Shown: one piece after another, positions 705-30,997 of the stretch
Position numbering within the stretch: position 1 is the first letter of the stretch
How the letters are laid out: each line of letters begins with the position of its first letter
NCBI GenBank assembly: GCA_903881585.1
Contig: CAIRTW010000205.1
Location: 1-33,668 of the forward strand
Direction of reading: 5' to 3'
Source of the DNA: an uncultured Bacteroidota bacterium
GTDB taxonomy: Bacteria; Bacteroidota; Bacteroidia; Chitinophagales; Chitinophagaceae
Length of the DNA: 33,668 nucleotides
Made by a program: the position numbers and the translations under genes
The notes under the pieces: model-generated
Told to the model about the DNA's origin: nothing
Seen by the model: the letters and a program-made list of their open reading frames with translations, nothing else
The model's database searches: none

Positions 705-1319
705 TTATTCATCTCCTTCAAACGTCCTGAACACCATTTTCGCCTTTTCCATGGCTATTACTGCATGGTTAGGATATTGACCCTGGACCACTGAATTGGA
801 ACCAACAATATTGTTGATGCCTAAGATAGTGCCGCCCAGTATGGCTGCACCAACACCGATCCAGGTGCCGTCTTTGATGTGAATTGGAATGCCTTTTTGG
901 TTAGGCTGCTGTATGATCGGCACGTTGGGATGGGCCGAAGAGTGATTATTATCGCCGATGAACACACGTTCTGCTATAGTGCAGTTTTTGCCAATGATGA
1001 TTGAGTTGGTACACGAGATAAATAAATTGCGCTGTATCTGGGTTTCATTCTCTATCCTGATGGACGACTCAAAAATGTACTGCTCCTTTTTGAAATCGGC
1101 CAGGTACTTTTTATCAATGTAGTTCATCAGCTCCGAGGTATCCCAGTAGGCGTGCATGTATGCAAACTCACGGATGCTCACGCGGTCGCCAATGTAGATA
1201 TTCTGGGGGTTCAGAATTCTGTATGGAGGTAGTATCTTGGCGTTCTCCCCAAAATAAGCAAACTTCTTTTTGTCTTCGCTGGTCAGCGGTTCGTTCTTCT
1301 CAATTAATACGTTGGCCAT
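705..1319 (-). CDS. Left-handed beta-helix (hexapeptide repeat) acyltransferase
   Basis: A 204-aa protein with hexapeptide repeats. Imperfect [LIV]-G-x4 turns are seen at about residues 40-50 and 85-175 (for example IIIGKNCTIAERVFIGDNNH). His126 in the GDNNH segment sits where the catalytic His of xenobiotic/virginiamycin-type and sugar O- or N-acetyltransferases lies. A loop at about residues 52-80 interrupts the helix, as in that subfamily. Such enzymes are trimeric, cytosolic and move an acyl group from CoA or a carrier protein to a sugar or amino sugar. It is the last gene of a five-gene minus-strand operon, 12 nt after the carrier/phosphopantetheinyl transferase fusion. That context suggests a donor other than plain acetyl-CoA, which is inference. 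Confidence 0.85.
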   Translation of the reverse strand: MANVLIEKNEPLTSEDKKKFAYFGENAKILPPYRILNPQNIYIGDRVSIREFAYMHAYWDTSELMNYIDKKYLADFKKEQYIFESSIRIENETQIQRNLFISCTNSIIIGKNCTIAERVFIGDNNHSSAHPNVPIIQQPNQKGIPIHIKDGTWIGVGAAILGGTILGINNIVGSNSVVQGQYPNHAVIAMEKAKMVFRTFEGDE

Positions 1320-1331
1320 TTCCTGATTATT

Positions 1332-1967
1332 TTATCCGTTTACCATACACAAAACAACTGCAGTGGCCATCTTTTCGGTATGGCTGATGCTTAGCTTCAA
1401 TACAACATTAGTCACTGGGCTTGGCAGCTCCAGGTAGGGAGCGCCATCGCTATCATGTTTCACGCAGATGTTCTTCATTTCTACGCCCGCAAATAGCTTA
1501 TTGCTTTTGATCAGCGCTTCCTTTGCGCAGAACATACCACATAAGTGTATCCTCGGATTTTTTGCTGCTATAGCATACCTGATCTCTTCCGGCTGGAAAA
1601 CCGATTGATAAAAATCATCGTTTAAATAATCAGCCGACTCAGGCAGGTTGTCCAGCTCTTCAATATCCGTCCCGATAGAAATATCGACCCCTGCTGGCTT
1701 GCCCATGGTGCGCGCGGGTGCAGGCGTAGCCTGTAAAGCTGCCTGTGCCGGGGCGGCACCGCCCAGTTGGCTGAGTACATCACTAACCAGCGAATCTGGC
1801 GTGATCGCCGGAATTTTCTTCCCGGTTTCTTTTTCCAGTTGCCGGTGCAGCCTTATCAGCTTTATCGAAGAACTAAGCCCGATAGATTTGAACGTTTGCC
1901 CTGCAGTAACTGCCAGCGAATCTATATTCGCGAAGTGGCAAATGACCTGTATGATCTTGTTTTCCAT
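1332..1967 (-). CDS. Acyl carrier domain fused to AcpS-type 4'-phosphopantetheinyl transferase
   Basis: A 211-aa two-domain protein. Residues 1-68 look like an acyl carrier domain. Ser33 in the GLSSSIKLI segment stands where carriers have the Ser of GLDSL that takes phosphopantetheine; the preceding Asp is Ser here. An Ala/Pro-rich linker (about 70-92) joins it to an AcpS-like domain (93-211). That domain has Asp101 of the (I/T)D(I/V)xE motif, Lys149-Glu150 in FCAKEALIK and the SISHT segment at 193-197, which are the Mg-CoA site and core of holo-ACP synthases. The enzyme half would transfer phosphopantetheine from CoA to the carrier half. The start codon directly abuts the E2 stop codon and has a strong AGGAGG ribosome site. 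Carrier and synthase in one chain is unusual, because the two are normally separate genes. Confidence 0.85.
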   Translation of the reverse strand: MENKIIQVICHFANIDSLAVTAGQTFKSIGLSSSIKLIRLHRQLEKETGKKIPAITPDSLVSDVLSQLGGAAPAQAALQATPAPARTMGKPAGVDISIGTDIEELDNLPESADYLNDDFYQSVFQPEEIRYAIAAKNPRIHLCGMFCAKEALIKSNKLFAGVEMKNICVKHDSDGAPYLELPSPVTNVVLKLSISHTEKMATAVVLCMVNG

Positions 1968-3248
1968 TTAATAACCTCCTGAACAAATATGACAGATATA
2001 ATTTTGCTTTCCTTTCTCATCCACATTCACATACATCACAGCCTCATTCTTGTAGTACTCGTGAAGTGTTTTCACGTCAGTGAAGCATTTGCTGCACACA
2101 ACTTCACTTGCGGCATCCGGGTTTACGTTTTCACCGGTCGAATATTTCGATAAACGGAATTTCAGCTGGTTCAGGAAATTGGAGATCGCAGCACCCGAAT
2201 GAACTTTATGGTCAAATACCATGGTCAGTGTCATTGGCTTACCCGGCAAGTCCGAATCCATCCCTATACCCAGTATTGCGCTCTGCAGCCCATTGATAAG
2301 CGGCTGAAAGCTGAAGATGTTTTCGCCAGAAAGGTCTGTTACCGTGAATGAACCGGCGGTGAGGTCTTTGTAGGAGAATTTGTTATCGAGATAACAATCG
2401 ATAAAATAAGCAATTTTTTGCTCCAGGTCAGCAATGCTGAGCCCATCGGCTTTTTGTATTACAGGCACCTTTAGCTGGTTGTCCAGGTCGAGTGCTACGC
2501 CTATGTTTACCTCGTCGTAATAATATACCTTCTTGCCATCGTAATATGAACACATAGCCGGGTTTTCCCTCAGCAACTGCGCCAGCTCAAACAATATAGT
2601 TGGCAACCGGTCATGCGGGCTGAACAGGCGTTCTGTATTTAGTTGTACCGTGAGCGAACTGCTGATATTATCTCTTTGGCCCGCTTCAAGCTGTGCTATT
2701 TCAAACAGCTTCGATGGAGAAACGTCCGTATTTCTGTATTTATCGTTATCCGCCGAAGCAGGTGATACCTGGCTCTTCTCATTTTCGGATTTCTTAGGAG
2801 CGTCTTTTTTATTTAGCTTGGCTAAGATAGTCCGCTTTGTGACAAGCCCCTGCAATCCGAGGTTTTCAAGGTTAGGATTGTGTTCCTCTATATATGCCTT
2901 TGCGTCGTCCGAATATCTTACAAAACCGGAAACGACTGCTTGTTTTTTCTGTTTCTTTTCTGCCGTCTGCCCAGCGCTCGCCCCAGTGGAAACATACTGG
3001 TTTAGCTCCTCCACAGTCGAAAAAAGATAGCCAATCACCGCACCAATAGCAACTGTTTCCTCTTCGGCAGATGATTGCTTAACAAAACCATCATGCTCCG
3101 CCTCAAATTCAAACGTAGCCTTTGAGGTTTCAAAATCAACTATGATATCGCCCTTGCGCACTGCTGCCCCATCCTTCACATACCAACGTAATATTTTTAC
3201 GTAGTCGTCATTGGAATTTACCTTTGGAACGCTTAAATCAATTCTCAT
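1968..3248 (-). CDS. 2-oxoacid dehydrogenase E2-like lipoyl acyltransferase with C-terminal zinc ribbon
   Basis: A 426-aa protein. Residues 1-78 form a lipoyl domain with Lys43 in ETSKA as the lipoylation site. Residues about 105-147 resemble a peripheral subunit-binding domain, after a Lys/Gln-rich linker. Residues about 175-370 match the E2 acyltransferase core. Its active-site segment reads DHKVHSG (346-352): the catalytic His347 is kept, but the usual DHRxxDG has Arg to Lys and Asp to Ser changes. Residues 385-422 add a Cys-x2-Cys / Cys-x2-Cys pair, a likely zinc ribbon not normal for E2 enzymes. It would accept an acyl group from the E1 encoded upstream (11-nt overlap) and pass it to CoA or to the phosphopantetheine of the next gene's carrier domain. 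No E3 gene is nearby. Confidence 0.85.
   Translation of the reverse strand: MRIDLSVPKVNSNDDYVKILRWYVKDGAAVRKGDIIVDFETSKATFEFEAEHDGFVKQSSAEEETVAIGAVIGYLFSTVEELNQYVSTGASAGQTAEKKQKKQAVVSGFVRYSDDAKAYIEEHNPNLENLGLQGLVTKRTILAKLNKKDAPKKSENEKSQVSPASADNDKYRNTDVSPSKLFEIAQLEAGQRDNISSSLTVQLNTERLFSPHDRLPTILFELAQLLRENPAMCSYYDGKKVYYYDEVNIGVALDLDNQLKVPVIQKADGLSIADLEQKIAYFIDCYLDNKFSYKDLTAGSFTVTDLSGENIFSFQPLINGLQSAILGIGMDSDLPGKPMTLTMVFDHKVHSGAAISNFLNQLKFRLSKYSTGENVNPDAASEVVCSKCFTDVKTLHEYYKNEAVMYVNVDEKGKQNYICHICSGGY
1975..1980 (-). promoter_or_regulatory. Consensus Shine-Dalgarno AGGAGG for the carrier/AcpS fusion gene
   Basis: On the minus strand AGGAGG lies 7 nt before the ATG at 1967. The bases also encode the last codons of the upstream E2 gene. 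A full consensus site is uncommon in Bacteroidota, where most genes in this window have none. It fixes the start and suggests high or coupled translation. Confidence 0.55.
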
Positions 3249-5172
3249 TAATCAGTTCTTTTATCAGGGAAATAATCTTTGTTTTACCCGGCAATACTTC
3301 TTTCTCCATTTGGCCGGAAGAAGGAATACATACAGCCGGAGGGTTTATTCTTTTTATCTTTTTCAGATGCCCGGGAAGTTGCTCAGACAATTGCGCGATA
3401 AGCTCCGATCCAAATGCCGCAAACCCCTGCCCTTCCTCTATGATCACCAATGCCTCGCTTTGCTCAAAAACATCGAGGTACTTGCTCACATGAAACGGGT
3501 AGATCTTCGTGGGGCAAAACACTTGTGCCACTATGCCATGCTGCTGGAAAAGCTCATCCACAATTTCCGGGAGCATGGTTGACAGACCACCATAGGCAAC
3601 AATCGTCACATCTATAGCAGCGCTTGCAGGCTTGATCAGGCTTACCGGGAACATTTCTACGGAGGCCTCATTTGAAAACCCTTCAGGAAGCGACTGCAAT
3701 AAATTAGCTCCGTAAAGCTGCTTGTTTTCTATTAATAAAAAGGGGCCGAGGTTTTTACTTTTTATAAGGCTCTTGTATATAATTCCGGGGTCAGACAGGT
3801 GGTTGATGGCCACGACCGTAAGGCCGGGTATGCCCAGGAAGTGTTTTTCCAGAGTCTGGCTGTGTGTAGGCCCGTAGCCACGCCCACCGCCCATTGGCGT
3901 GCGTATGATCATGTTCACTTTCACGTGGCCATGATACATCATTTCAAATTTGCTGATGTGGTTCAGTATCTGGTCGAATGTGAGGGAGATAAAATCACCG
4001 AACATGATCTCCACCAGCGGAAAAAACCCTTCCAGCGCCAGGCCACAGCCTATGCCGGCAATAGTACTTTCCGAAATGGGCGTATTGAATACCCGCTCCG
4101 GGTACATGGCCGACAACTCATTCGATACTTTGAATGCACCACCGTATGGCGACATTACGTCCTCCCCAAGGAAAATGACCCGGTCATCCTCACCCATCGC
4201 TTCTTTAAAAGCGGCATTGATCACATTTACCACACGCTTATTCTGCAGCTGGCCCACTTGCTCCCACGGCACCAATGCAGACTCGACAAGGTCTGCCGGA
4301 ATAGGGGAATAGCCATGCTGCTCCGCTTTTTCAACGGACATTTCGATCAGCTCATCTATTTTTGATTCCTCAGCGCGAATGTTATTTTCATTTGCCTCCA
4401 GAATTTTTGTAAGCGGGTCTAAAGACTCGTAATGGCTTACTTCACTTTTATCCCTGTTATCATCTCCTTTTGAGTGGGCTTTTAGGCGGTAAGTATTTAT
4501 CAGCAGGAAAACAGGCTTTACCTCATTTCTTACAATGTCAAACGCCTGCTGCGTTGTTTCTGCAAGCTGCTCCCAGTTCCAGGTATCACCTTCAAATGTA
4601 GTTATACCAAAAGCCTTTGCCCGGTCTGTTATGCTGCCGGCCATTGTCTCCTTGATAGACGTGGACTGGGCATACTGGTTATTTTCCAGTATTACCAGCA
4701 TCGGCAGACTCCACTTAGAGATTATGTTGAATGTTTCATACACACTACCCTCGCCCAATGTACCATCGCCGATAAATGCAATGGACATATTTTTCTGACT
4801 ATTGAGCTTGAACGCAAACGCACAACCAGCCGCAGTAGGCAGGATACCTCCCTGAATACCACTGGAGAAAAATTTGTCTTTATACAAATGCTGGCTCCCA
4901 CCCCATCCGCGGCAAACGCCCGACTCCTTGCCTATTATCTCACTGATCAGCCCGTCAATATCATTGGTGTATGATAAAAAATGCCCGTGGCAGCGGTGAT
5001 TGGAAAAGATCGCATCTCCGCTATGAATAAACTCAGATACCACCGCCCCGCTGAATTCCTGCCCGATACATGTATGCACCGTTCCGCTTAGCTTCCCTTC
5101 ACCAAAAAGGCTAAGCAAACGGTTTTCCACTTTCCGCGATAGTAATGCTTTATGAATAATTCTGTCTCTCAT
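3238..5172 (-). CDS. Thiamine-diphosphate 2-oxoacid dehydrogenase E1, alpha and beta subunits fused
   Basis: A 644-aa protein from the ATG at 5172; a TTG at 5196 would add 8 residues. The alpha-type half (about 1-300) has the thiamine-diphosphate motif, GDGTLGEG at 135-142 ending in NN at 164-165. The beta-type half (about 310-644) has LGEDV and GPTHSQ, typical of E1 beta of pyruvate, branched-chain and acetoin dehydrogenases. It would decarboxylate a 2-oxoacid and reductively acylate the E2 lipoyl arm. Fused alpha/beta E1 proteins are known in Bacteroidota, usually for branched-chain acids. Here the gene is linked to a glycosyltransferase, a carrier and a sugar-type acyltransferase instead of E3. 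The substrate cannot be read from the sequence. Its 3' end overlaps the E2 start by 11 nt. Confidence 0.92.
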   Translation of the reverse strand: MRDRIIHKALLSRKVENRLLSLFGEGKLSGTVHTCIGQEFSGAVVSEFIHSGDAIFSNHRCHGHFLSYTNDIDGLISEIIGKESGVCRGWGGSQHLYKDKFFSSGIQGGILPTAAGCAFAFKLNSQKNMSIAFIGDGTLGEGSVYETFNIISKWSLPMLVILENNQYAQSTSIKETMAGSITDRAKAFGITTFEGDTWNWEQLAETTQQAFDIVRNEVKPVFLLINTYRLKAHSKGDDNRDKSEVSHYESLDPLTKILEANENNIRAEESKIDELIEMSVEKAEQHGYSPIPADLVESALVPWEQVGQLQNKRVVNVINAAFKEAMGEDDRVIFLGEDVMSPYGGAFKVSNELSAMYPERVFNTPISESTIAGIGCGLALEGFFPLVEIMFGDFISLTFDQILNHISKFEMMYHGHVKVNMIIRTPMGGGRGYGPTHSQTLEKHFLGIPGLTVVAINHLSDPGIIYKSLIKSKNLGPFLLIENKQLYGANLLQSLPEGFSNEASVEMFPVSLIKPASAAIDVTIVAYGGLSTMLPEIVDELFQQHGIVAQVFCPTKIYPFHVSKYLDVFEQSEALVIIEEGQGFAAFGSELIAQLSEQLPGHLKKIKRINPPAVCIPSSGQMEKEVLPGKTKIISLIKELINEN

Positions 5173-5240
5173 TTCATTAAATATAATTCCTGCCAAAAAA
5201 CACGTGATCTATAAACAGGCCTCAACCATACGGGTGGAGA

Positions 5241-6200
5241 TCACATGTTTAATTTCTTGTCCACAATAAAATGGGGTCTGTTTTTAGTCTGTAAGAATAT
5301 CTTACCTATGTAGGCGCCAATAATACCCGTACTCATCAGTATCAACCCTGTATTAAAAATGATCAGCACTGCCAAGCTTGCCCACCCGGGGCTGAACCCA
5401 TGTGTGAACCGCAAATATACTATATAAATGATCAACAGGAAACCGATGATGGAAAACGACATGCCCGTAAAAATAGAGATAGTGAGCAGCCTGTTCGTCT
5501 GAGATATGATACCATTCACGGAGTGCATTATCAACTTCTTCAAGGTATATGAGCTCTTCCCTTCAAAACGCTTATCATGCTCTATCTCCACATAAGTATG
5601 GGTGAACCCAAGTATCTTCAGCATGGATAAATAAGGCCGGTAAAAGTCATTCAACCTGTTGTACTCCTCCTGCACTTTTTTCGTAATGAGGGAATAGCCC
5701 CCGATCTTCAGATTATTGTTCAGCGACTTATCATCAAGCAGCCAGTTGAATATCTTGGACCAGAAAAATGAAATGAAGTTCTTGATGAAATTATGGTTCC
5801 TTGTATTTTTGTAGGTATATACTATATCATTCCCTTCTTCCGCTTTATCTATGAGCGTTTTGATATACTTTGGGTTGTCCTGCAGATCGCAATCCATAAC
5901 AATAAGATAATCTCCTGTGGCCAGGTAAAGCCCCGCTGCGATCGCATTGTGCTGTCCAAAATTTCTGCTCAGCCTTACCCCTTTCACTTTATCATTCACT
6001 TTGCATATTGCCTCTATTTTCTGCCACGACCTGTCTGGACTGTTATCTTCAACCAAAAGGATCTCATAATTATTAGTAATAGCCACCATTGCGTCAGTGA
6101 TCTGCTTCACAAGCTCGTCCACGATCTTCTCCGCGCCATATACCGGGCTAATGATGCTGATAAATTTACTATCCATGTTTTGCATTGTAAGTAATTTCAT
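5241..6200 (-). CDS. GtrB/ArnC-like polyprenyl-phosphate glycosyltransferase (GT2)
   Basis: A 319-aa membrane glycosyltransferase. The GT-A domain starts with ISIISPVYG and has the acidic pair ED at 51-52 and the metal-binding DCDLQDNP at 103-110. The RF-x-GKSSYT segment (211-219) is typical of the DPM1/GtrB/ArnC group. Two transmembrane helices follow at about 239-264 and 275-302. These enzymes move a sugar from a nucleotide sugar to undecaprenyl phosphate at the cytoplasmic face. It is the first gene of the operon with the E1, E2, carrier and acyltransferase genes, 68 nt before the E1 ATG. Met9 (6176) is an alternative start that fits the family better. The sugar is unknown. Confidence 0.9.
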   Translation of the reverse strand: MKLLTMQNMDSKFISIISPVYGAEKIVDELVKQITDAMVAITNNYEILLVEDNSPDRSWQKIEAICKVNDKVKGVRLSRNFGQHNAIAAGLYLATGDYLIVMDCDLQDNPKYIKTLIDKAEEGNDIVYTYKNTRNHNFIKNFISFFWSKIFNWLLDDKSLNNNLKIGGYSLITKKVQEEYNRLNDFYRPYLSMLKILGFTHTYVEIEHDKRFEGKSSYTLKKLIMHSVNGIISQTNRLLTISIFTGMSFSIIGFLLIIYIVYLRFTHGFSPGWASLAVLIIFNTGLILMSTGIIGAYIGKIFLQTKNRPHFIVDKKLNM

Positions 6201-26862: not shown

Positions 26863-28347
26863 CTAGTGTATGCCAGGATAGCCATCTTTAGGTTTGTCTT
26901 TCTCAAAATTTCCTGAATAGACCATCTTTCCATCCTGCATAAAACACTCGCCCTTACCGCTCTTCACACCGTCTTTCCAGTAGCCCTTATATACCTTGCA
27001 CTTCTTGCAATAGCTAATACTTCTTTTGGCTTTTTTAGAGCTGATGGTATAGGTACCGTAGCCGTTCTTTCGGTCATTGTCAAAATGCCCCTCATACCTA
27101 TCGCCTACTTTCCAGTAAAAGATACCTTCGCCGTTTTTCTGGTCGTGGAGCCACTCGCCTTCATACGCATCTCCGTTATTGTAGTAGTAGCTACCGTGGC
27201 CGCTGCGCTCGTTGTTCACAAAGTGGCCTATGTATTTGTCCTTGTTTGTCCAGTAATAAGCGCCCTGCCCCGTCCGAATATTGTTCTCATAATGCCCGTC
27301 ATATTTTTCGCCGCTTTTCCAGTAGCAAATGCCGTGTCCGTTTAGCTGGTTATTCAGGAAGCCGCCAGTATAGCTGTGGCCCACGGCCCACTGAAAAGTG
27401 CCAGTACCATTCTCCAGGTCATTCTTCCACTCACCATGATATATATCCCCGTTCTCAAAATAAAAGCTTCCCTGCCCCGACTGCTTATCATGCTCAAAAT
27501 GCCCTACATATCTGTCGCAGCTGGCCCAGTTGAAAACGCCCTCACCCGATTGCTCCCCCTTCTCATAATGCCCCTCATACTCATCCCCGTTTTTCCAATA
27601 GAAGTGTCCTATGCCATCCTTCAGGCTGTTTTTCCACTCGCCCTCATACCTGTTGCCGTTAGCAAAGTAAAGAATTCCTTTGCCTGACAATTCGTTGTCC
27701 TCCACTTCCCCTTCATAGCGGTCTCCGGTTATCCAGTAAAACACGCCGCTACCCCACTGTCCATCATTTTCCCAACTGCCCTCATACCTGCTGCTGTCGC
27801 GGTAATAAAAGATGCCCTGACCCGACTTCTCCCCGTTCAGGAAATTGCCAAAATATTTATTACCACTATCATATTCCTGTGTTCCGTAGCCATCAGCAAT
27901 ACCAAGTGTACCGCCATTTTGAATCAATATCTGTTGTGCATCCTTATGATTGTACTCCATGGCCCAGTATAACGGGGTGGTTTTGGAGTCGACTGTAATA
28001 CAAAAGGCATTCACGGGCACACCTCCCTTCAAACAACGGTTAATAAGCGCAGTATCGCCCTGGAAGGCTGCTTCATGCAGCAGGGTCCAGCCCTGTTTGT
28101 TGGCATCGGTGATGTTAGCGCCTTTGCTCAGAAGGTCACTCATTACATTAAGGTCAATAGGTGGGTCTTTTTCCAGCTCTGCTTTATAGAGCTCAATGGC
28201 GACTCTCTTCTTATGCTCAGGTGTGCTGTTGGAGTCTATTTCTGGCTTATTGACAGGCTTCTTAGCTTTCACGTTTTTTTGAGCCGCAGCCGAAAAACTC
28301 AGAAACATCAGTAACACAATAAAGAGTCTCAGCACACTGTAGCTCAT
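26863..28347 (-). CDS. Exported ankyrin-MORN repeat protein
   Basis: A 494-aa protein. A signal peptide (1-22, ending SAAAQ) is followed by a charged region and an ankyrin-like block of about three repeats (about 60-150; GWTLLHEAAFQGDTALINRC). About 13 MORN repeats of 23 residues follow (about 165-485), of the form YEGxxxNxxxxGxGxFYWxxGDR. MORN repeats form an extended beta sheet that binds lipids or proteins. In bacteria their role is poorly known. The repeats are well kept at protein level (69-bp DNA period). A CKKC pair lies near residue 445. The start is the ATG at 28347, preceded by a terminator-like hairpin. Confidence 0.9.
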   Translation of the reverse strand: MSYSVLRLFIVLLMFLSFSAAAQKNVKAKKPVNKPEIDSNSTPEHKKRVAIELYKAELEKDPPIDLNVMSDLLSKGANITDANKQGWTLLHEAAFQGDTALINRCLKGGVPVNAFCITVDSKTTPLYWAMEYNHKDAQQILIQNGGTLGIADGYGTQEYDSGNKYFGNFLNGEKSGQGIFYYRDSSRYEGSWENDGQWGSGVFYWITGDRYEGEVEDNELSGKGILYFANGNRYEGEWKNSLKDGIGHFYWKNGDEYEGHYEKGEQSGEGVFNWASCDRYVGHFEHDKQSGQGSFYFENGDIYHGEWKNDLENGTGTFQWAVGHSYTGGFLNNQLNGHGICYWKSGEKYDGHYENNIRTGQGAYYWTNKDKYIGHFVNNERSGHGSYYYNNGDAYEGEWLHDQKNGEGIFYWKVGDRYEGHFDNDRKNGYGTYTISSKKAKRSISYCKKCKVYKGYWKDGVKSGKGECFMQDGKMVYSGNFEKDKPKDGYPGIH

Positions 28348-29614: not shown

Positions 29615-30247
29615 TTATTTACTCCACTTCTTAAAATCATGCTCCATATCTCCTAAAACATTGTAGAAACTCTTTGCCCAGTAGTTCCGGAAACCGAAGC
29701 CGCCCGAGCCGCCCGTCATTTGGTTGGTAAGCAGCACTTTCTTGCTGCCCATATCAACAAAAGTAACCCACATGGAGGCTTCCACCTTATCCTTGCTCAT
29801 ACCTTCCACAAAAAATAACAGCCCGATGCCGGTTTTGCCTTTGAAATCGTAACCTGCTACCAATGTTGAGATCATATCTGCATTGAGCAACTGGTAGTCA
29901 TCTGCCTTTTCGGTAAAATATTCAGCAGTTGATTTGTCATTTGCGTTTTGCGTTATATCTGAAGCGTAGCTTACCTTATCGCGATGCACAGCCCCAGCTA
30001 CATCGTACTTCTTTTGCTCGGCAATGAACAGATTATTCCAGGCCGGGAAATATTTGGACCGCATGTCGCCATTGGTGATCGTTCCTGCGTCCTTGAACTG
30101 CGCAGCATTGCCAATAAACTTCAGATGTGTAAAATCAAGCCCCAGCCATGTTATGGGCGCATCACCAAAAATGTCGGCTTTTGTCTGGCCATTGCCGTTT
30201 AATGAGAACCCAATTGCTAACAGGACAAAAAGTAGTGTTTTTTTCAT
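29615..30247 (-). CDS. Exported protein, copy 1 of a tandem paralogous family
   Basis: A 210-aa protein of unrecognised family with a signal peptide (1-20, ending GNGQ). Blocks shared with the copies at 30335-30997 and 31690-32344 are TKADIFG.APITWLGLDF.HLKFIG near the mature N-terminus, LLFFVEGM.KDKVEASMWV and TFVDM.SKKVLLT in the middle, and GFRNYWAKSFYNVL near the end. The conserved WLGLDF/HLK and the FFVEGM core suggest one compact mixed alpha/beta domain. It is probably periplasmic or surface-located. The function is unknown. Confidence 0.8.
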   Translation of the reverse strand: MKKTLLFVLLAIGFSLNGNGQTKADIFGDAPITWLGLDFTHLKFIGNAAQFKDAGTITNGDMRSKYFPAWNNLFIAEQKKYDVAGAVHRDKVSYASDITQNANDKSTAEYFTEKADDYQLLNADMISTLVAGYDFKGKTGIGLLFFVEGMSKDKVEASMWVTFVDMGSKKVLLTNQMTGGSGGFGFRNYWAKSFYNVLGDMEHDFKKWSK

Positions 30248-30334: not shown

Positions 30335-30997
30335 TTACAAATTTATAAAAAGGGAATTTCTATTCACGACACTCCGCCATTCATAGAATTCTTTCCCCGT
30401 GTTCCAGAGCACATTGGAAAATGACCGCGCCCAGAAGTTCCGGAACCCTGCTCCGCCGGCTACACCGGTCATTCGCTCGGCCAGCAGTACTTTTTTGCTG
30501 CTCATATCCACAAAGGTCACCCACACGGATGTTTCTACTTTGTTTCTATCCATTCCTTCTACAAAGAATAGCAGGCCGATACCTTTTTTTCGCCCAAAAT
30601 CGTATCTGGCAATAAATTCAGAAATGCTGTCTGCAGTCAGTAATTGATATTCGTTCGCGTTGTCTGTAATATATGTTCCGGTTAACTTGTTGTTCTCCTT
30701 TTGGGTTATATCCATAGCATAACCCACAAAGTCGCGGTGAACGGCTGCGGCAACGTTGAATTTATCCTTTTCGTTGAAGATCAGGTTGTTCCATGAGGTG
30801 AAGTAGTCTGTCTGCAGATCAGCGTTGGTAATAAGGCCAGTATTGTTATGTTGGCTGGCTTTTCCAATGAATTTTAAATGAGAGAAGTCCAGCCCAAGCC
30901 ATGTTATAGGGGCATTGCCAAAGATATCGGCTTTGGTTTGTGCGTAGCCGCAGGTAGTCATCAAAGCAGCAAGAAGAATGAGTAGGCCTTTTTTCAC
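30335..30997 (-). CDS. Exported protein, copy 2 of the tandem paralogous family
   Basis: A 220-aa protein with a signal peptide (ending GYAQ) and the same conserved blocks as copy 1 (PITWLGLDFSHLKFIG, FFVEGMDRNKVETSVWV, GFRNFWARSFSNVL). It starts at a GTG at 30997, as no in-frame ATG precedes it. The C-terminus carries about 12 extra residues (VVNRNSLFINL). It is separated from copy 1 by 87 nt and diverges from the hicB gene, 47 nt away. The function is unknown. Confidence 0.8.
   Translation of the reverse strand: MKKGLLILLAALMTTCGYAQTKADIFGNAPITWLGLDFSHLKFIGKASQHNNTGLITNADLQTDYFTSWNNLIFNEKDKFNVAAAVHRDFVGYAMDITQKENNKLTGTYITDNANEYQLLTADSISEFIARYDFGRKKGIGLLFFVEGMDRNKVETSVWVTFVDMSSKKVLLAERMTGVAGGAGFRNFWARSFSNVLWNTGKEFYEWRSVVNRNSLFINL

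Follow-up and report, generated by a model that had tools for sequence, protein, structure and literature searches.

The stretch of DNA analyzed here, hereafter called the window, is the whole of contig C205 (33,668 bases) in a 4.85-Mb draft genome with 5.23% contamination, and our subject is the operon formed by five minus-strand open reading frames (ORFs) at positions 705-6200. These encode a family 2 glycosyltransferase (GT2), a fused E1 enzyme dependent on thiamine diphosphate (ThDP), a lipoyl-bearing E2 acyltransferase, a fusion of an acyl carrier protein (ACP) with its own phosphopantetheinyl transferase (PPTase) of the AcpS type, and a hexapeptide enzyme. The original prediction had described the same five genes; their coordinates and spacings are borne out by the ORF list, and their assignments by Pfam searches. 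The features are as follows.

5241-6200, minus strand: GT2 glycosyltransferase, PgfS/ArnC-like (polyprenyl-phosphate type), matching Glycos_transf_2 at 1.5e-26 and scoring below the cut-offs of PgfS (180 bits, cut-off 500) and ArnC (138 bits, cut-off 529); operon member by position only
3238-5196, minus strand: fused alpha-beta E1, a ThDP enzyme placed in the glycolyl-carrier clade by homology, tree and clade-specific residues
1968-3248, minus strand: E2, composed of a lipoyl domain, a linker, a divergent acyltransferase domain and a C-terminal CxxC-CxxC extension
3030-3227, minus strand: E2 lipoyl domain, with lipoyl Lys43 in the motif ETSKAT (Biotin_lipoyl, 1.5e-8)
2142-2603, minus strand: E2 acyltransferase (CAT) domain, in which the DHRxxDG motif reads DHKVHSG
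1983-2096, minus strand: putative zinc ribbon at the C-terminus of E2, CxxC...CxxC, from the alignment of E2s
1332-1967, minus strand: ACP-AcpS fusion, carrier domain plus its own PPTase
1866-1868, minus strand: codon of Ser34 in the carrier domain, where phosphopantetheine is proposed to be attached (all 8 fusions have Ser34-Ile35)
1395-1679, minus strand: AcpS domain (ACPS, 2.8e-11, 43.9 bits, cut-off 25)
705-1319, minus strand: hexapeptide (left-handed beta-helix) acyltransferase, WbbJ-like, the proposed last step (Hexapep, 1.2e-10; 80 bits against WbbJ, below the cut-off of 243)

The genes are tightly packed: GT2 and E1 are separated by 44 nucleotides (nt), or 68 nt if E1 starts not at the TTG at 5196 but at the equally likely in-frame ATG at 5172; E1 and E2 overlap by 11 nt, E2 and ACP-AcpS abut with 0 nt between them, and 12 nt precede the hexapeptide gene. 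Pfam matches above cut-off comprise E1_dh, Transket_pyr and Transketolase_C in E1, Biotin_lipoyl and 2-oxoacid_dh in E2, and ACPS, Hexapep and Glycos_transf_2 in the remaining proteins. Scans of the window for promoters and terminators gave signals about equal to those of shuffled sequence, and AlphaFold models built without alignments were uninformative for the hexapeptide enzyme and ACP-AcpS, with a mean predicted local distance difference test score (pLDDT) of 32.1 and 36.0, respectively.

Among plasmid records, the best match of the window E1 is RenH from the renieramycin cluster of Candidatus Endohaliclona renieramycinifaciens, with 52.8% identity over 99% of the query; in the same record the gene end of RenH is overlapped by RenI, which is the best match of the window E2. 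The top Bacteroidota match lies in genome G502 (locus L059, 52%), whereas relatives from the same genus share 41-47% identity with the window E1. Because an E1 from another phylum is thus closer than those of the same genus, horizontal transfer of the gene is suggested by these sequence comparisons. Other plasmid matches, at 37.6-39.3% identity, come from Streptomyces NBC_01384, Streptomyces NBC_01136, S. cattleyicolor and Nonomuraea (in a stretch almost devoid of annotation); in NBC_01136 the gene order ACP-E1a-E1b-E2 adjoins genes for nonribosomal peptide synthetases (NRPS). A further plasmid, from Paenibacillus polymyxa, carries a polyketide synthase (PKS) cluster with E1a, E1b, E2 and two ACP genes (L067:6447-11873, plus strand; E1 identity 36.8%). 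All 14 phage records matching E1 show 31.2% identity or less, and the relatives found in the PDB (E 1e-20; the alpha half was also run) bear the names of pyruvate dehydrogenase (PDH), branched-chain 2-oxoacid dehydrogenase (BCKDH) or 2-oxo acid dehydrogenase. A lone 20% match in the search of the genome contigs (L009) was not used.

In a tree of 48 rows, 22 E1s of this type, hereafter called cassette E1s, split from 26 ordinary E1s of 2-oxoacid dehydrogenase complexes with a support of 100 in the Shimodaira-Hasegawa-like approximate likelihood ratio test (SH-aLRT), and the window E1 clusters with RenH and the L059 protein, again with support 100. This tree, as well as that of the E2 proteins discussed below, derives from a quick search with SH-aLRT as its sole support, without bootstrap or approximately unbiased (AU) test. 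It omits the E1s of L001, L003, L006, L007, L008, L051, L054 and L055, which are split, partial, longer or not fitted, and that of Nonomuraea, in which the beta part was not found; the ordinary row L005 forms a very long branch. The separation can be correlated with specific residues, for 16 positions (T39, T42, S65, N66, Q102, Q115, T146, G148, Y153, G187, F196, K243, D246, S362, R439 and Y441) are identical in all 22 cassette E1s, with residues that few ordinary ones share (0-2 of 26), while five further positions are shared by 21 of the 22; these columns were selected for their discriminating power. Position 39, which we take to line the pocket, is occupied by W, F or Y in 25 of the 26 ordinary E1s and by Thr in the whole cassette set, and the substitutions may serve to accommodate a donor that is hydroxylated or phosphorylated. 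The E1 had initially been called a 2-oxoacid dehydrogenase; judged from its place in the tree, it is no ordinary member of that family but groups with E1s of NRPS/PKS clusters that resemble the ketose-using, glycolyl-ACP type.

E1 and E2 do retain the folds and catalytic His motifs of 2-oxoacid dehydrogenases, and it could be argued, in keeping with the original prediction, that the carrier is loaded with an acyl group taken from a 2-oxoacid such as pyruvate, 2-oxobutyrate, a branched 2-oxoacid or hydroxypyruvate. We consider this unlikely, given that E1 groups with NRPS/PKS-cassette E1s and with none of the 26 ordinary ones, that the aromatic residue 39 is replaced throughout the cassette set (even if one ordinary E1, considered below, has Thr too) and that acetyl from pyruvate would duplicate acetyl-coenzyme A (acetyl-CoA).

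E1s of the cassette clade were found in 18 Bacteroidota genomes, the window's included. They occur in 6 of 149, 7 of 395, 7 of 396 and 1 of 244 genomes in samples that overlap, the first three of which contain the window's genome; 20 genomes of the 149 scored above threshold, the other 14 at 28-32% identity, as did 16 of the 395, where one of the seven clade members has a split E1 recognized by reading locus L061. The genome searches score only the best three to eight candidates per genome, so that absence is not absolute. Two types of loci can be distinguished. Type A combines E1, E2 and ACP-AcpS and includes the window, L030, L031, L056, L059, L078, L079 and L080, plus L032, which is cut by a contig end and excluded from partner counts. 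Type B combines E1 with a lipoyl-hexapeptide fusion protein (L033, L034, L057, L058, L060, L061, L081, L082 and L083); the fusion gene adjoins that of E1 in eight of the nine loci and lies about 3.4 kb away in L033. A search of plasmids with the lipoyl-hexapeptide protein gave no match.

The genes for E1, E2 and ACP-AcpS stand together in all eight uncut type A loci (the window and seven others) and form a conserved three-gene cassette. Among 395 genomes, full-length ACP-AcpS is present in G000, G213 and G502 (233-312 bits; the next match, at 90 bits, has no carrier part) and the full-length lipoyl-hexapeptide fusion in G159, G343, G425 and G444 (480-577 bits; next 146, without the lipoyl part), which are exactly the seven genomes with a clade E1. 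As the partner profiles were built partly from the same genomes, detection in these is by construction and the real test is the other 388 genomes, in which no full-length partner of either type was seen among the three to seven candidates scored in each. The co-conservation proposed earlier for all five families thus holds for three of them in Bacteroidota. A homologue of the GT2 is found in none of the other 17 loci (blastp at 1e-3 over 263 ORFs, those of the window included), and of the hexapeptide enzyme only the type recurs: a hexapeptide protein lies within the fetched stretch in six of the seven uncut type A loci besides the window, at 22-29% identity to that of the window, and, counting the window, 16 of 17 uncut loci have one either close by or as part of a fusion. 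The GT2 is therefore not conserved with the cassette.

The surroundings of the relatives are rich in genes for glycan biosynthesis. Twelve of the 17 other loci lie among such genes, including six of the seven uncut type A loci, five by family search and L078 by shared gene order only; the context is weak or absent in L030, L032, L034, L061 and L082. Neighbors comprise glycosyltransferases, a flippase, gmd and fcl (both in L031 and L079, gmd in L080), nucleotide-sugar dehydrogenases, PseB and PseC (above cut-off in L060, and together with PseF in L081) and NeuB-like genes (below curated cut-offs, in L059 and L060). Of ten neighbors picked for their glycan-like appearance, nine match a glycosyltransferase or flippase family and one, in L078, matches none.

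Type B loci strengthen the connection with sugars. All nine lipoyl-hexapeptide proteins match the sugar acetyltransferase family NeuD/PglB/VioB (TIGR03570) at E 1e-5, the member shown scoring 122 bits, below the cut-off of 160.8, and four of them also match families of the E2 type. Biotin_lipoyl, PglD_N and a hexapeptide model are all above cut-off in L060, L061 and L081, and Lys42 is invariant in the alignment of the nine proteins. In L057, the fusion gene is located between aminotransferase plus E1 and a Gfo/Idh-like dehydrogenase (both matches below curated cut-offs), a position that corresponds to the one held by the N-acetyltransferase WbpD in the Wbp pathway; the cluster also contains a nucleotide-sugar dehydrogenase, an L-2-hydroxyglutarate oxidase and a flippase-type protein. 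The oxidase gene (L057:6391-7581, plus strand), which has a look-alike in L058, sits inside the amino-sugar cluster, and its product may serve to recycle the 2-hydroxyglutarate that the Gfo/Idh sugar oxidase forms. In two other type B loci, proteins of the FkbH_N family, which in other systems is associated with glyceryl-ACP loading, are encoded next to E1 (L033:6819-8546 and L034:17156-18742, both minus strand).

This recurrent context bears on another possibility, namely that the glycolyl-carrier serves a secreted small molecule or lipid and that the GT2 and hexapeptide genes are incidental. The best match of E1 does come from a natural-product cluster, the operon of the window is isolated, and the 20 kb read at L030 contain no adjoining glycan genes, though a contig end is close by there. 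Yet reading the translated ORFs of the window by eye turned up no NRPS or PKS gene, and with the 12 loci embedded among glycan genes we regard a small-molecule pathway as somewhat less likely still than a 2-oxoacid donor.

The E2 protein departs from ordinary E2s in a manner parallel to that of E1. Its lipoyl Lys43 is invariant in 12 aligned cassette E2s, but the Asp of the DHRxxDG motif, present in six of six ordinary E2s, is replaced by S, E, T or N in all 12. In the E2 tree (18 rows) the 12 cassette E2s lie on one side of a branch with support 98, under a long-branch warning. The CxxC-CxxC extension is found in eight of eight Bacteroidota type A E2s and in none of four others (RenI and the E2s of NBC_01136, Paenibacillus and S. 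cattleyicolor). Neither this extension nor the changed motif residues of E1 and E2 had been part of the original prediction. In the ACP-AcpS fusions, the AcpS residues D101, K149, E150 and K154 are invariant in all eight. The fusions of L030, L031, L056, L078, L079 and L080 end in a hydrophobic C-terminal tail, apparent by eye and absent from those of the window and L059, which could be a membrane anchor of the carrier.

The absence of an E3 gene had been presented as setting this operon apart. None adjoins it, but the genome encodes a single true E3 on contig C174 (552 bits, next match 51 bits), so that the lack of an adjoining E3 is weak evidence and, with this enzyme available in trans, was discarded as a distinguishing feature. 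In L059, a protein of 586 amino acids whose gene overlaps the end of the ACP-AcpS gene (L059:4985-6745, minus strand) shows a Pyr_redox_2 match and an E3-like CINYGC motif and may be a dedicated, divergent dihydrolipoyl dehydrogenase. The E3 in trans and the normal use of CoA by the E2 acyltransferase fold would also suit an ordinary maker of acyl-CoA beside which ACP-AcpS is a separate activity, but this is the least likely of the alternatives, considering the constant company of the three genes, the lack of a full-length fusion in any of the other genomes among the 395 searched and the divergence of the window E2 (115 bits, vs. 273-296 for the three other E2s of the genome).

The system that E1, E2 and carrier resemble most is the glycolyl-ACP cassette of natural-product clusters (NapB/C/D, QncL/M/N, SclQ1-4 plus SclP, DinS/T/U), which likewise joins a ThDP-dependent E1, a lipoyl E2 acyltransferase and an ACP. 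The work of Peng from 2012 is said to have defined this cassette. RenH, presumably, has the role of glycolyl supply in its own cluster. Cassettes of the Qnc/Scl type are reported or proposed to make glycolyl-ACP from ketose phosphate, and napB/napD homologues are given the same role in PMC7570522, which cites Peng 2012 (PMC3365175); naphthyridinomycin is described as incorporating ketose phosphates (PMC9268379). The scl cassette is assigned SclQ1-4 for glycolyl-ACP, with the PPTase SclP also in its gene table, and the residual product after sclQ1-4 deletion is ascribed by its authors to other glycolic acid. The carrier-loading half of the operon, presented originally as part of a system that could not be named, has therefore a published precedent.

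The likeness extends to the joint encoding of ACP, E1 and E2 in Streptomyces NBC_01136 and in the Qnc/Scl layout, with the same E1 signature residues, and to the best matches of both window proteins in the renieramycin cluster. Compared with glycolyl-ACP cassettes, the window has an E2 adjoining E1 and a dedicated ACP, its carrier domain falling just short of the Pfam cut-off, but no NRPS gene was seen that it could feed; its neighbors are sugar enzymes, its PPTase, which has a counterpart in the scl cassette, is fused to the carrier, and its E2 bears the CxxC-CxxC extension. With PDH, BCKDH and acetoin dehydrogenase the window shares the E1, lipoyl and E2 acyltransferase folds, the lipoyl Lys and the catalytic His motifs of E1, but differs in the separate branches of E1 and E2, the fixed changes in E1, the lost Asp in E2 and the dedicated carrier. 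The C-terminal half of the type B fusion resembles sugar N-acyltransferases of the PglD/NeuD/WbpD type (TIGR03570), from which it is distinguished by the N-terminal lipoyl-like domain and by a donor that is presumably not free acetyl-CoA. The carrier-loading module is known; neither its proposed deployment on surface sugars nor the fusion of lipoyl and PglD domains was described in the matches listed for titles and abstracts of the open-licence PubMed Central (PMC) literature, outside of which lie most subscription papers.

We infer that a glycolyl-carrier cassette has been redeployed in this operon to acylate sugars, a reading to which we assign a probability of about 0.55. E1 would bind a two-carbon unit on ThDP; its source is most likely a ketose phosphate that yields its glycolaldehyde unit, in a transketolase-like manner, rather than a 2-oxoacid that is decarboxylated. 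Oxidation would accompany the transfer of this unit to the E2 lipoyl arm, giving glycolyl-dihydrolipoyl. From there, the divergent acyltransferase domain of E2 would hand the glycolyl on to the phosphopantetheine arm of ACP-AcpS, the carrier of which would be primed by the AcpS half, while the housekeeping E3 would reoxidize the lipoyl arm. From the carrier, the hexapeptide enzyme would move the glycolyl to a surface-glycan sugar by N- or O-acylation, and the GT2 may handle that sugar on a polyprenyl carrier. Context and homology (seven other E1-E2-ACP-AcpS loci, six of them among glycan genes, and the type B fusion) indicate that the fused carrier probably receives the acyl group, which would then be used to modify a surface glycan, in line with what had been proposed. 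Loading of the carrier is the part that we hold with most confidence; a surface glycan as acceptor is likely and glycolyl as acyl group slightly less so, while still favored, and these estimates, including that for the whole, are correlated. Type B has its lipoyl-like domain built into the acyltransferase, which suggests that the acyl-lipoyl thioester is used directly. Tentatively, we would go further and propose a distinct acylation route for surface sugars, with an acyl-dihydrolipoyl donor, charged by the PDH-type E1, for a fused PglD-type N-acyltransferase (type B), or a self-priming carrier relay (type A), that operates without free acyl-CoA and makes N-glycolyl amino sugars from central-carbon ketoses, although we see this as somewhat short of an even chance.

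Several observations weigh against the proposed redeployment. The function of the Bacteroidota members is predicted from their genes, and the donor of the clade may have changed. Our E1 comparison used RenH and the E1s of NRPS/PKS clusters, not the assayed NapB or QncN sequences, and the link to glycolyl-ACP systems consequently runs via the former rather than via biochemically tested members; we know of no assay for RenH or the similar clusters. G502, although among the closest relatives, is rated 7% contaminated. Both trees gave long-branch warnings, and in that of E1 the branches of, for instance, L061 and the Thermus row may be joined artificially. The ordinary E1 of a C. difficile plasmid, encoded in a full E2/E3 operon, carries Thr39 and Lys243 too, and these two residues alone are therefore not clade markers. 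The carrier domain of the window scores 20.2 bits for PP-binding, just below the cut-off of 20.8, and the fusions of L031, L059 and L079 have no Pfam match to this family. A Pfam lipoyl match is similarly missing in the type B proteins of L033 and L057 (hexapeptide only) and below cut-off in L034; the lipoyl reading of these three follows from the alignment at Lys42 and from the blastp match of the L057 fusion to a type A E2 (2.8e-10). The only glycan-type neighbors of the cassette in the window are the GT2 and hexapeptide genes, with no large glycan cluster around the operon, and since glycan clusters often contain hexapeptide enzymes, chance may account for those found close to type A loci.

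If the glycolyl-carrier reading is correct, a central-carbon enzyme family would be tied to bacterial surface-sugar chemistry, providing a bacterial source of N- or O-glycolyl groups on glycans, and a natural-product module would have moved into cell-envelope biosynthesis. Annotations of such E1s as pyruvate or 2-oxoacid dehydrogenases would then need correcting. In the lipoyl-acyltransferase fusion, a sugar would receive its acyl group directly from the swinging lipoyl arm, a mode of donation that to our knowledge is new.

Elsewhere in the window, an ORF of 494 amino acids on the minus strand (26863-28347) consists mostly of MORN-like repeats, as judged from its translation. Two adjacent and similar ORFs of 210 and 220 amino acids, also on the minus strand (29615-30247 and 30335-30997), are by eye probably the product of a tandem duplication.

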